Source: Tautonia sociabilis (GTDB lineage: Bacteria; Planctomycetota; Planctomycetia; Isosphaerales; Isosphaeraceae). From it: a DNA stretch of 64,000 nucleotides. Positions 31,020 through 36,152 of the stretch are shown in pieces (within the stretch, counting starts at the first letter, position 1; each line of letters starts with the position of its first letter). The notes beneath the pieces are model-generated. The model worked only from the letters and a program-made list of their open reading frames with translations. It was not told where the DNA came from and ran no database searches. The translations under genes and the position numbers were made by a program. The DNA is taken from contig NZ_RYZH01000033.1 in the NCBI RefSeq assembly GCF_003977685.1, positions 1 to 64,000 of the forward strand, given 5' to 3'.

Positions 31020-34000
31020 GTGCACCGCGAGTACGACCCGACGCAGATGGGGCTCGGCCATGTCGTCGAGTCGCATCATCACCACGATCACGACCATCAC
31101 CCGGGCCACGATCGGGGGCACGACCACGATCATGACCACGAGGCCGAGCGCCGCCGACTGATTGTCACGACCTGGGCGGTCGGTCTGCTGCTCGCGGGGC
31201 ACCTGCTGCTGCCGCTTTGGTCGAGCGACTGGGGCCGGCCGTTCGGCGTGCCGCTCGGGCTGCTGGCGGCGATCATCGGCGGGGGCCGGATCGTCTTCCA
31301 CGCCCTGGAGGCGCTGTTCGCCGGCAAGGTGGGGGCCGACATCGCGCTGGCGATCGCGACCGTCGCCGCCGCGCTGGCGGGCGAGTACTTCGTCGCCGCC
31401 GAGGTCGTCTTCATCGCTCTGGTCGGCGAGTGCCTCGAGGCGTATGCCTTCGGTCGAGCGCAGCGGGCGATCAAGAACTTGCTCGACCTGAGGCCCGCCT
31501 CGGCCACCATTCTTCGCGACGGCGCTGAGATCGAGATCCGAGCCGAGCAGATCGCGGTTGGCGACGTGCTCGTCGTCCGCCCCGGCGAACGCATCGCCGC
31601 CGACGGCGCCGTCGTCGCCGGCCGCACGGCCGTCGACCAGTCCGCCCTCACCGGCGAGGGGATGCCCGTCGACAAGGGGCCCGGAGAACCCGTCTACACC
31701 GGCACGATCAACCAGTTCGGCCGCATCGAGGTCCGCGCCGAGAAGGTCGGCGCCGAGACGACGCTGGGCCAGGTGATTCGACTGCTCTCCGCCGCCCAGG
31801 CACGGAAGTCTCCCCTGGAACGCACCGCCGACCGCTTCGCCCGAGCCTTCCTCCCGGCGGTGCTGGTGTCAGCGACGGTGGTCTTCCTCGGGACGAATGC
31901 CGGGGCGGTCTGGTCGCTGGCCCGGTCAGGAACGCTCGGAGGCCGATCGGTCGATGTGATGCCGACGCTCGCCGTGCTGGTCGTCGCCTGCCCTTGCGCC
32001 CTGATCCTCGCCACTCCGGCCGCCGTGCTGGCGAGTCTGGCCCGCCTGGCGCGCTCCGGAGTCCTGGTGAAGGGGGGAGCGGCGATCGAGCGGCTGGCGA
32101 AGGTCGATTGCCTCGCCTTCGACAAGACCGGTACCCTCACCGAGGGCCGTCCCGAGCTAGCCGACCGTCGCACCTTCGGGGGCTGGGATCCCGACGGCGT
32201 GCTCCGCCTTGCCGCCGCCGCCGAGCGGTCCAGCGAGCACCCCCTCGCCAGGCTCCTCGTCACGGAGGCCAACCGAGCCGGCCTCGACCTTCCCCTCTCC
32301 GACGACTTCCTCGCTCACCCCGGCGCCGGCGTCGAGGCGAAGGTCGAAGGCCGCTCCATCCTCGTCGGCAACCTTCGCCTGTTCCGGGAGCGGGGCATCG
32401 CGGTCGCCCCCGAGGTCGAGGAGGCCCTGGACGCCCTCGACGAGTCCGGCCAGACCGCCCTGCTCGTCGCCGTCGAAGGCCAGATCGTCGGCGTCCTCGG
32501 CGCCCGAGATCGCGTCCGGGCCGAAGCCCACGACGTGGTGCACGCCCTGAAGCACCTCGGGCTGAAGGACCAGACCATCCTCACCGGCGATCGCCTCGCT
32601 CCGGCTCGGGCGATCGGCAGGAAGGTGCACATCGCTCAGATCGAGGCCGAGCTGACCCCCGCCGCCAAGGCCGAGTGGATCCATCGCAAGCAGCACGAGG
32701 GCCGCATCGTCGCCATGATCGGCGACGGCATCAACGACGCCCCCGCCCTGGCGATGGCCGACGTCGGCATCGCTCTCGGCGGCGTCGGCACCGACATCGC
32801 CGCCGAGGCCGGCTCCATCGTCCTCATGGGCGACCCGCTCATGCCGCTGCCGGGAGCGATCGAGCAGGCCCGGCGCACGGTCCGGAATATCCGGCAGAAC
32901 ATCATTCTCTTCGCATTCGGCCTGAATGCCATCGCGGTCATCCTCGCTGGCCTCCGCGTCCTCGGCCCGGTGGCCGCCGCCGTCGTTCACCAGATCGGGT
33001 CGTTCCTCGTCATCCTCAACGCCATCCGCCTGCTCGGCTTCGAGGGCTGGCGCCAGTTCGGCGTTGTGAGGGCGGGCGAGCGGTTCGTCCTCGCTTGCCG
33101 ATCCTGTCGGCCGTCGGTGGTGCGAAGCTGGGCGGCTCGCCATCGTCGGGCGCTGATCGGTGGCTCCGCCACGATTGCAATGGTCGCCTATCTCGGCTCG
33201 GGCCTGACCATTATCGAGCCCGGCGCCGTCGGCGTTCTCCAGCGCTGGGGAGCCAGGCGCGACCCGATGCTCGGTCCGGGGCTGCACCTGCGCTGGCCGA
33301 GGCCGATCGAGCGGGTCACGGAACGGGAGCCCGAGCTCATCCGGGTGGCTCGAGTCGGCCTTGTCGGATCGACGGTGACGAACTCGCCGACCGGCGCCGT
33401 CGCCTGGAGCACCGAACACGACTCCTCCTCCGACGAAGACGCGGCCCTCTTTCTCACCGGCGACGAGAACCTCGTCGAGGTCGCTGGCGTTGTCGAGTAC
33501 CGACTGACCGCCCAGGCCGCCGCCGACCTCCTCTTCGGGGTCGCCGCTCTCGATTCTGTCGTCCAGGCCGCCGCCGAGGCGTCCTTCCGAGAGGCCGTGG
33601 GGAAGTCGGCTCTCGAATCGATCCTCGTCTCCGACCGCCCCGAGCTGGAGGCCGAGATCGGCCGCCGCATCCGGGCCCGACTGCGACGCGCCGGCGTCCC
33701 CGTCGCGGTCGAGCGGGCCCGGATCGTCGATGCCCACCCGCCTCGAGCCGTCGTCCCCGCCTACCGAGACGTGGCCGCCGCCGTCTCCGACTCGGAGCGC
33801 TACCGCAACGAGGCGATCGGCTACGCCGAATCGCGCCGATGGCTCTCCCTGGGCGAGGCGAGCGAGGCCCGGGACCGCGCCTCGGCCTCCTCCTTCGCGC
33901 TGGCCCGGGCCGCCGAGGGAGCCCGAGACGCCTTCCTCGCCCAAAGCTCCGCCCGGGCCAGCCACCCCGGACTGACCGACTTCCGCCTCGTCCGAGAGGC

Positions 34001-34163
34001 CCTCGCCGCCGGCCTCGCCGGCCGCCCGAAGCTGATCCTCGACCCTCGCGCTCGAGGCCGCCGTCAGGTCTGGCTCGCCGATCCCGACCGCTTCGGCCTC
34101 GAGCCAGCCGCGTTCTCCTCCCCGGCGACCGAGGCCCAACCGATCGAACCTTTCGACGAATGA
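31020..34163 (+). CDS. P1B-type metal ATPase fused to a C-terminal SPFH (HflK-like) domain
   Basis: 1047 residues in one continuous frame, GTG start (ATG at 31047 is an alternative). Residues ~19-42 are a His/Asp-rich tail (H-H-H-H-D-H-D-H-H), a likely metal ligand; no HMA C-x-x-C domain is present. The ATPase core is complete: T211-G-E, the transmembrane metal motif C324-P-C326, phosphorylation site D368-K-T-G-T, H407-P and G568-D-G-I-N-D. The last membrane pair ends H-Q-I-G-S-F-L-V-I-L-N, where Zn exporters carry an Asp. At about 709-732 a further hydrophobic segment starts an SPFH/HflK-like part (E-P-G-A-V-G-V-L-Q-R-W-G, G-P-G-L-H-L-R-W-P) running to the end. Typical P1B pumps are ~650-800 residues. 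I infer a metal exporter tethered to an SPFH scaffold made with the next two genes. Confidence 0.9.
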   Translation: MHREYDPTQMGLGHVVESHHHHDHDHHPGHDRGHDHDHDHEAERRRLIVTTWAVGLLLAGHLLLPLWSSDWGRPFGVPLGLLAAIIGGGRIVFHALEALFAGKVGADIALAIATVAAALAGEYFVAAEVVFIALVGECLEAYAFGRAQRAIKNLLDLRPASATILRDGAEIEIRAEQIAVGDVLVVRPGERIAADGAVVAGRTAVDQSALTGEGMPVDKGPGEPVYTGTINQFGRIEVRAEKVGAETTLGQVIRLLSAAQARKSPLERTADRFARAFLPAVLVSATVVFLGTNAGAVWSLARSGTLGGRSVDVMPTLAVLVVACPCALILATPAAVLASLARLARSGVLVKGGAAIERLAKVDCLAFDKTGTLTEGRPELADRRTFGGWDPDGVLRLAAAAERSSEHPLARLLVTEANRAGLDLPLSDDFLAHPGAGVEAKVEGRSILVGNLRLFRERGIAVAPEVEEALDALDESGQTALLVAVEGQIVGVLGARDRVRAEAHDVVHALKHLGLKDQTILTGDRLAPARAIGRKVHIAQIEAELTPAAKAEWIHRKQHEGRIVAMIGDGINDAPALAMADVGIALGGVGTDIAAEAGSIVLMGDPLMPLPGAIEQARRTVRNIRQNIILFAFGLNAIAVILAGLRVLGPVAAAVVHQIGSFLVILNAIRLLGFEGWRQFGVVRAGERFVLACRSCRPSVVRSWAARHRRALIGGSATIAMVAYLGSGLTIIEPGAVGVLQRWGARRDPMLGPGLHLRWPRPIERVTEREPELIRVARVGLVGSTVTNSPTGAVAWSTEHDSSSDEDAALFLTGDENLVEVAGVVEYRLTAQAAADLLFGVAALDSVVQAAAEASFREAVGKSALESILVSDRPELEAEIGRRIRARLRRAGVPVAVERARIVDAHPPRAVVPAYRDVAAAVSDSERYRNEAIGYAESRRWLSLGEASEARDRASASSFALARAAEGARDAFLAQSSARASHPGLTDFRLVREALAAGLAGRPKLILDPRARGRRQVWLADPDRFGLEPAAFSSPATEAQPIEPFDE

Positions 34164-35217: not shown

Positions 35218-36152
35218 TGCGTCGCAGAGTGCTCGGAAGCATCGTCGTCGCCCTGTCCGCGTTTGCGGTGAGCGGGGTGCGGGTGATCCGGCAGGACGAG
35301 GTCGGTGTCGTCCGCCGCTTCGGCGCCGTCCGTCCCGAGCTGTGGGGCCCCGGCCTGCACTGGGGGTTGCCCTGGGGGATGGACCGCGTCGACCGGCTCC
35401 AACCGGGCAAGACCCGATCCCTCACCATCGGGGACGATGGCCAGACCGCCGCCCCGCTCTCCCGACGGCCCGACCCCGAGGCCGACGACGTGCTCACCGG
35501 GGACCTGAACCTCGTCACGGCCCAGGTCACCTTGCAGTACCGCGTTTCGGACCCCACCCGCTTCCTCTTCGCCTCGACCTCCATCGAGGACGCCCTCTCC
35601 CGGGCCACCGAGGCCGCGTTGACCCGGGCCGTGGCCTCCCGGCGAGTCGACGACGTGCTCACGACCGGCCGCGCCGAGGTGGCCGACGCGATGGCCGCCC
35701 TGATCCAGTCGACCGCCGACCGCCAGGGGCTCGGTGTCTCCATCCGAGCCGTCCGGCTCGGCCGCGTCGCGCCCCCGGTCCCTGTGGCCGACGCCTTCGC
35801 CGACGCCGCCCGAGCCCGCAGCGACCGTCGCCAGGCCGTCTCCGAGGCCGAGGCCTACCGCGATCGCACCCTCGCCGACGCCCGAGGCCGTTCCCGGGAG
35901 ATCGCCGACGCCGCCTCCGCCGCCCACGACCGCGCCGTCCAGCTCGCCCGCGGCGAGGCCGACCGCTTCTCCTCCGTCCTGACCGAGGCCGCCCGCTCCC
36001 CTGACGCCTCCCGTCGACGCCTCTACCTGGAGGCCATCGCCGAGCTGCTCCCTCGCGTTGATCGCACCGTCGTCGTCGACCCCGGTGAGGCTGTGGACCT
36101 CGGCCTCTTCGCTGGCGGACGCGGGCCGGCCGAGAGCAACGCCAAGCCCTGA
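35217..36152 (+). CDS. SPFH/Band 7 protein, HflK-like
   Basis: 311 residues; the ATG shares one base with the stop of the HflC-like gene, so the two are translated together and probably assemble together. A short N-terminal transmembrane helix (about 5-22) leads into V-I-R-Q-D-E-V-G-V-V-R-R-F-G-A-V and G-P-G-L-H-W-G-L-P-W, the HflK-type SPFH opening. V-T-A-Q-V-T-L-Q-Y-R-V-S-D matches the family's middle strands. The C-terminal half is a charged coiled coil rich in Ala/Glu/Arg. It is the third SPFH domain in a row, counting the one fused to the ATPase. A strong hairpin lies directly after the stop. Confidence 0.9.
   Translation: MRRRVLGSIVVALSAFAVSGVRVIRQDEVGVVRRFGAVRPELWGPGLHWGLPWGMDRVDRLQPGKTRSLTIGDDGQTAAPLSRRPDPEADDVLTGDLNLVTAQVTLQYRVSDPTRFLFASTSIEDALSRATEAALTRAVASRRVDDVLTTGRAEVADAMAALIQSTADRQGLGVSIRAVRLGRVAPPVPVADAFADAARARSDRRQAVSEAEAYRDRTLADARGRSREIADAASAAHDRAVQLARGEADRFSSVLTEAARSPDASRRRLYLEAIAELLPRVDRTVVVDPGEAVDLGLFAGGRGPAESNAKP

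Follow-up and report, generated by a model that had tools for sequence, protein, structure and literature searches.

We analyzed a 64,000-nucleotide stretch of the Tautonia sociabilis genome (contig NZ_RYZH01000033.1, positions 1 to 64,000; hereafter the window), which carries three consecutive SPFH genes on the forward strand. The first gene, designated F (31020..34163, +), starts with GTG and encodes a protein of 1047 amino acids (aa), in which a P1B metal ATPase is joined through a ninth predicted transmembrane (TM) helix, TM9, to an HflK-type SPFH domain. It is followed by an hflC-type gene (34225..35217, +; 330 aa) and an hflK-type gene (35217..36152, +; 311 aa), which overlap by one base, 35217. 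An earlier note on this DNA had described the same arrangement, and had read it as a metal pump built into, or confined by, an SPFH ring of three different subunits. The frame of F is continuous from the GTG at 31020 to the stop at 34163 without any break; no frameshift or pair of separate genes was found at about 33.1 kb, where the note had considered that two genes might have been wrongly joined. Pfam placed E1-E2_ATPase (6.8e-53), Hydrolase (1.9e-23) and Band_7 (4.9e-16) on this one protein. Promoter, terminator and Rfam scans gave no match.

F begins with a conserved HREYDP motif (31020..31040, +). About 85 related fusions share the almost invariant N-terminus [M/V/L]HRE (31020-31031 in the window), including copies without the His-rich tail described below, which supports the GTG at 31020 as the start. 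The His/Asp-rich N-terminal tail (residues 19-40; 31074..31139, +) is present in many Isosphaeraceae copies and absent in Gemmataceae copies. The P1B-type ATPase body (residues ~47-671; 31158..33032, +) has eight predicted TM helices and contains the CPC metal-site motif (residues 324-326; 31989..31997, +), the DKTGT phosphorylation motif (368-372; 32121..32135, +), the GDGIND motif (568-573; 32721..32738, +) and the HQxGS motif of the last core helix (657-661; 32988..33002, +). The NCBIfam model for heavy-metal P-type ATPases, TIGR01525, scored 548 bits on residues 107-671 against a cut-off of 346. TGE, CPC, DKTGT, H407, GDGxND and HQxGS showed no variation across 67 aligned fusions; in HQxGS, the H, Q and S were invariant in the first 28 aligned copies, and the H, Q, G and S in all 67. 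An Arg-rich linker (672-708) and the predicted TM9 (709-727) form the junction between pump and SPFH part (33033..33200, +). The HflK-type SPFH domain follows (730-1008; 33207..34043, +) with a long coiled-coil helix (911-999). The AlphaFold model of F was confident (mean predicted local distance difference test score 83) and comprised the eight pump helices, the Arg-rich linker, TM9, SPFH1/2 and the long coiled coil. Its ATPase part matched the folds of ZntA (4umw, TM-score 0.89) and sCoaT (7qbz, 0.85). By family score, motifs and fold match to ZntA and sCoaT, F is a P1B-type heavy-metal ATPase. The complete ATPase motifs, the further membrane helix and the HflK-like domain of the earlier note were thus all recovered. 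Residues 730-1008 scored 100 bits against the HflK equivalog TIGR01933, under its cut-off of 159.4; because of this score the SPFH part is classified as an HflK-like paralogue and not as HflK.

The subtype of the pump was compared with published definitions. P1B-2 pumps carry CPC in M4 together with a conserved Lys in M5 and Asp in M6, and P1B-4 (CoaT-like) pumps carry SPC in M4 and HEGxT in M6 (PMC8880997, PMC10800456). F shares the fold and the catalytic motifs of ZntA (P1B-2) and CoaT (P1B-4), and resembles P1B-2 in its CPC and P1B-4 in the His of the last core helix. It differs from P1B-2 in that the Asp site reads HQ in 67/67 copies; the usual Lys site is Asn (N636) in an alignment to ZntA. 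From P1B-4 it differs in having CPC instead of SPC and HQxGS instead of HEGxT, the His being the only shared residue. An assignment of the metal from motifs therefore failed, since the CPC and HQxGS pair fits neither class. F is further set apart from both by its own clade and by its C-terminal TM9-SPFH extension. In the P1B tree, the fused pumps grouped 20/20 (support 90; 99 for 19 of them). These features describe a P1B ATPase family with its own metal-site signature, CPC plus HQxGS.

The two companion genes scored above their family cut-offs (TIGR01932, 167.5 versus 134.4, for hflC; TIGR01933, 175.6 versus 159.4, for hflK). The product of hflC passed the HflC family test, yet lay outside the canonical HflC clade; cassette HflC proteins form a clade apart (SH-aLRT 98). 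In the tree, F and the third protein (K) are both HflK-type and the second (C) is HflC-type. The T. sociabilis genome holds a second cassette of P1B-SPFH, hflC and hflK (C44:49.6-54.7 kb; L009:5625-10728), which is ~52% identical to the first and has TolQ/ExbB-like genes downstream.

To determine the distribution of the fusion, 84,980 prokaryote genomes were scanned in one pass, and 77 further loci with the fusion were found. The complete genome of Singulisphaera acidiphila (NC_019892, L117) has an intact fusion frame. Among 37 sampled Isosphaeraceae genomes, the fusion was full length in 24 and in pieces in 4 more. The fusion cassette or a part of it also occurred in 10 of 151 genomes from the phylum of G437, a metagenome-assembled genome (MAG) titled Armatimonadetes, and these fusions had CPC and HQ-S wherever readable. 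This set had no genome in common with the Planctomycetota sample, so the phylum is apparently a different one, and the fusion appears to occur in a second phylum besides Planctomycetota. None of the best 5000 matching plasmid records covered even 80% of the fusion, and plasmid-borne resistance was rejected on this basis. The fusion is thus neither unique to T. sociabilis nor degenerate in its SPFH part, two possibilities the earlier note had raised together. A functionless chance fusion or an assembly error might be suspected from a few MAG copies (L074 in G014, L139 and L167) whose ATPase is split over two overlapping frames, by sequencing error or decay. However, the frames are intact in complete genomes and in many other copies, the P1B clade of fused pumps has a single origin, and the catalytic motifs are invariant in 67 copies. 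An assembly error was therefore rejected, and we regard the probability of a functionless fusion as negligible.

Directly downstream of the 77 fusions, hflC and hflK were both present in 43 cases, hflC alone in 3 and neither in 17, while 14 loci were too short to judge. The expectation that the fusion always sits beside hflC and hflK was therefore not upheld: many Gemmataceae have a solitary fusion, with the C-K pair at another place in the genome. Such a pair was found in 6/6 whole genomes checked for solitary fusions. Five of these distant pairs were placed in the tree, and they branched with the cassette C and K proteins, not with canonical HflK/C.

We further located three-SPFH cassettes in other planctomycetes with a profile of the SPFH part of F. 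Thirty-two first SPFH genes lacked the P1B fusion; one of them (L221) is a misread canonical gene and not a cassette. Twelve carried the PF03773 (ArsP_1/SO_0444) Cu/Zn efflux domain, three carried a CDF domain, and 16 carried one multi-TM domain family with no Pfam match. The other exporter domains are fused at the same point as the P1B pump in F, and the CDF parts retain HxxxD metal-site pairs. A ZIP zinc-transporter gene lies directly upstream in 9 of the 12 permease cassettes (L195, L196, L199-L201, L203, L204, L206 and L209). All 16 multi-TM cassettes adjoin a P1B ATPase gene, which is directly downstream in 15 and upstream in one. As a control, 20 further loci were selected by HflC similarity alone, and these comprised 16 three-SPFH cassettes and 4 canonical hflK-hflC pairs. 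One of the 16 cassettes was a permease fusion and 15 were of the multi-TM type; a P1B gene lay downstream in 12 of the latter, and one was cut by the contig end. No exporter was found at the 4 canonical pairs. Five other canonical pairs had no P1B ATPase and no permease, and two of these five had weak CDF-like matches on opposite-strand open reading frames (ORFs). The P1B partners fell into three clades: the fused pumps, those downstream of multi-TM cassettes (support 100), and ZntA-like pumps downstream of two CDF cassettes. Exporters have therefore been recruited repeatedly. Since unrelated exporters occupy the same place, the gene arrangements strongly support a functional tie between metal export and the three-subunit SPFH set.

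The multi-TM-SPFH type was seen at L202, L207, L212, L213, L218-L220, L222, L223, L227-L233, L280, L285-L297, L299 and L300. In the P1B ATPases beside it, the CPx motif varies (CPC, CPT, CPG or CPS) and most copies have HN in the last core helix. Directly upstream of some of these cassettes lies a stand-alone ArsP_1-like permease gene (L218:8040-9614, L219:5668-7263, L222 and L223). Direct profile comparison of the multi-TM domain with CDF gave 21%. The N-terminal domain of another SPFH fusion, L276:6449-8419, matched both the CDF profile (Pfam 1.4e-8) and that of the multi-TM family. L276 may thus be an evolutionary bridge between the two, and because it matches both profiles, it suggests that the multi-TM domain derives from a CDF by decay, its work having been taken over by the P1B pump.

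The conserved trio could also serve quality control, acting as the HflK/C of its lineage and recruiting FtsH, with the fusion handing the pump over so that proteolysis sets its level, for example by destroying it when metal is scarce. HflK/C is an established partner of FtsH, and the T. sociabilis genome has two ftsH genes, while its five SPFH genes outside both cassettes look unlike HflK/C as read from their sequences. As the earlier note had observed, however, the locus itself has no ftsH, both genes lying on other contigs, and a search of cassette loci revealed no ftsH-like ORF next to any of them. Moreover, several planctomycetes, such as G114, G157 and G102, hold a canonical hflK-hflC pair as well as the cassette, which therefore does not merely represent the HflK/C of these genomes. 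This coexistence, together with the separate clades of the cassette genes, also led us to reject a canonical HflK/C operon with a stray fusion. Delivery to FtsH would leave it unexplained that this position holds several types of exporter, all of those identified being metal exporters. We therefore consider quality control rather unlikely.

The SPFH part of F was next examined for its capacity to form a cage. Its best fold match was HflK of the E. coli cage (9cz2 and 7vhq; E-value 3e-17), and in the AlphaFold model it has SPFH1/2, a long coiled coil and a C-terminal strand at cage length. Stalk length, taken as the distance between the HPP motif and the C-terminal strand, was compared in 89 triplets. 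In most of them, and irrespective of the exporter, the stalk has 97 residues in both F and C and 98 in K. The stalk of E. coli HflK is also 97 residues, though identity is only ~22%. The residue at the published FtsH-contact position, Arg191, is not Arg in the E. coli HflK numbering used here. The equal stalks of F, C and K and the conserved F-C-K order make a ring of three different subunits plausible. As F, like K, is HflK-type and C is of the HflC type, F might take HflK positions in a ring of alternating subunits.

SPFH proteins broadly organize membranes, and the domain might only sort or cluster the pump in a lipid microdomain, as flotillins do, without a closed cage or confinement of metal. 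The existence of solitary fusions and the constancy of the SPFH part while the exporter type varies would fit such a localization tag. A simple tag would not need a 97-residue stalk kept as in the E. coli cage, nor three distinct SPFH genes that stay together, and we find this explanation improbable. Alternatively, the SPFH domains might gate the pump as sensors of metal in the periplasm or as regulators there; the covalent attachment and the nearby His-rich tail could suggest this. However, the SPFH part has no conserved Cys/His cluster, its invariant columns being of Gly, Pro, Trp, Thr and Asp types, and the tail lies in the cytosol and is confined to some lineages. A sensor role is thus very improbable.

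Given the fusion, the intact catalytic motifs, the conserved trio and the exporter swapping, we infer, with a probability of roughly 55%, that three different subunits build a periplasmic, HflK/C-like dome around a patch of membrane, and that the fused subunit holds exporters in this patch. In HflK, the SPFH part is periplasmic. Both ends of the pump would be cytosolic, and TM9 would therefore put the SPFH part of F in the periplasm as in HflK, so that exported metal would emerge on the side covered by the dome. P1B-2 and P1B-4 pumps free their ions at the outer side (PMC8880997). The P1B ATPase would thus be the membrane part of F and the HflK-type SPFH subunit its periplasmic part. F, HflC and HflK would co-assemble into the dome, in which HflK and HflC positions would alternate, F probably filling some of the former, and each F would tether its pump through the short cytosolic linker and TM9 into the enclosed patch. 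The pump would carry a divalent heavy metal, most likely of the Zn/Cd type, out of the cytosol to the periplasmic side, either beneath the dome or next to it. The dome may fix the lipid surroundings of the pump, keep it clustered and possibly serve as a receiving chamber. Other lineages have, in place of the pump part, an SO_0444-type permease, a CDF transporter, or a CDF-like domain alongside a separate P1B ATPase. A bolder version, which we hold only tentatively and think doubtful, is that the three-paralogue periplasmic SPFH dome forms a new kind of compartment into which exchangeable exporters discharge their ion, for enclosed export and hand-over.

Several points weigh against the enclosed-exporter model. 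The role for which HflK/C-type proteins are best known is partnership with FtsH, rather than the scaffolding of transporters. Seventeen of the 77 fusions have room downstream yet no adjacent hflC or hflK. F proteins of a group centered on Gemmataceae (e.g. L142, L162 and L188) carry ~40 extra stalk residues that C and K lack, so equal stalk length is not universal. Finally, two multi-TM cassettes of the HflC-selected sample have no visible P1B gene. The pump-in-a-cage reading of the earlier note is thus partly supported: exporter swapping ties metal export to the SPFH trio and makes the reading more likely, while the three-subunit ring is only plausible, from stalks and gene order.

Among other genes seen in this work, one in the window, at 26882-30085 on the reverse strand, encodes a BNR protein of the Sortilin/Vps10 type into which a PDZ domain is inserted. 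Elsewhere in the T. sociabilis genome, two adjacent large SPFH genes of another type (549 and 585 aa) lie at C99:13.9-17.5 kb (L010:6044-9447), and a similar pair is present in G437 (C474).

The purpose of SPFH domes is an open question because their clients have mostly been found by chance. Here the gene itself specifies the client: one and the same SPFH slot carries fused metal exporters that have been exchanged several times, and the idea of a client in a dome becomes directly testable in bacteria with one protein. The cassette family points to a widespread, undescribed way of organizing metal export, a layer of metal handling in Planctomycetota and an apparent second phylum.

There is precedent for a transporter housed in an SPFH dome, since stomatin domes surround aquaporin-1 and urea transporter B (PMC12407830). 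The cassette is predicted to share with them an SPFH dome around a membrane transporter. The stomatin association is non-covalent, eukaryotic and cytosolic and involves water and urea transporters, whereas that of the cassette is covalent, bacterial and predicted to be periplasmic, with metal exporters. In E. coli, 24 alternating HflK and HflC subunits surround FtsH (PMC12048511). The cassette resembles this complex in its HflK- and HflC-type subunits, equal stalk length and predicted periplasmic dome. It differs in having three SPFH genes rather than two, arranged F-C-K and not K-C, in the absence of ftsH, and in the metal exporter that its first subunit carries as a fusion; its HflC belongs to a separate clade. 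SPFH-NfeD operons (QmcA-YbbJ and YuaG-YuaF) likewise cotranscribe an SPFH gene with a membrane partner. Their partner is NfeD, whereas the cassette combines SPFH genes of the HflK/C type with a metal exporter, in most cases as a fusion. A search of open-access full text found no description of such a system. The parts are known; their combination is new.

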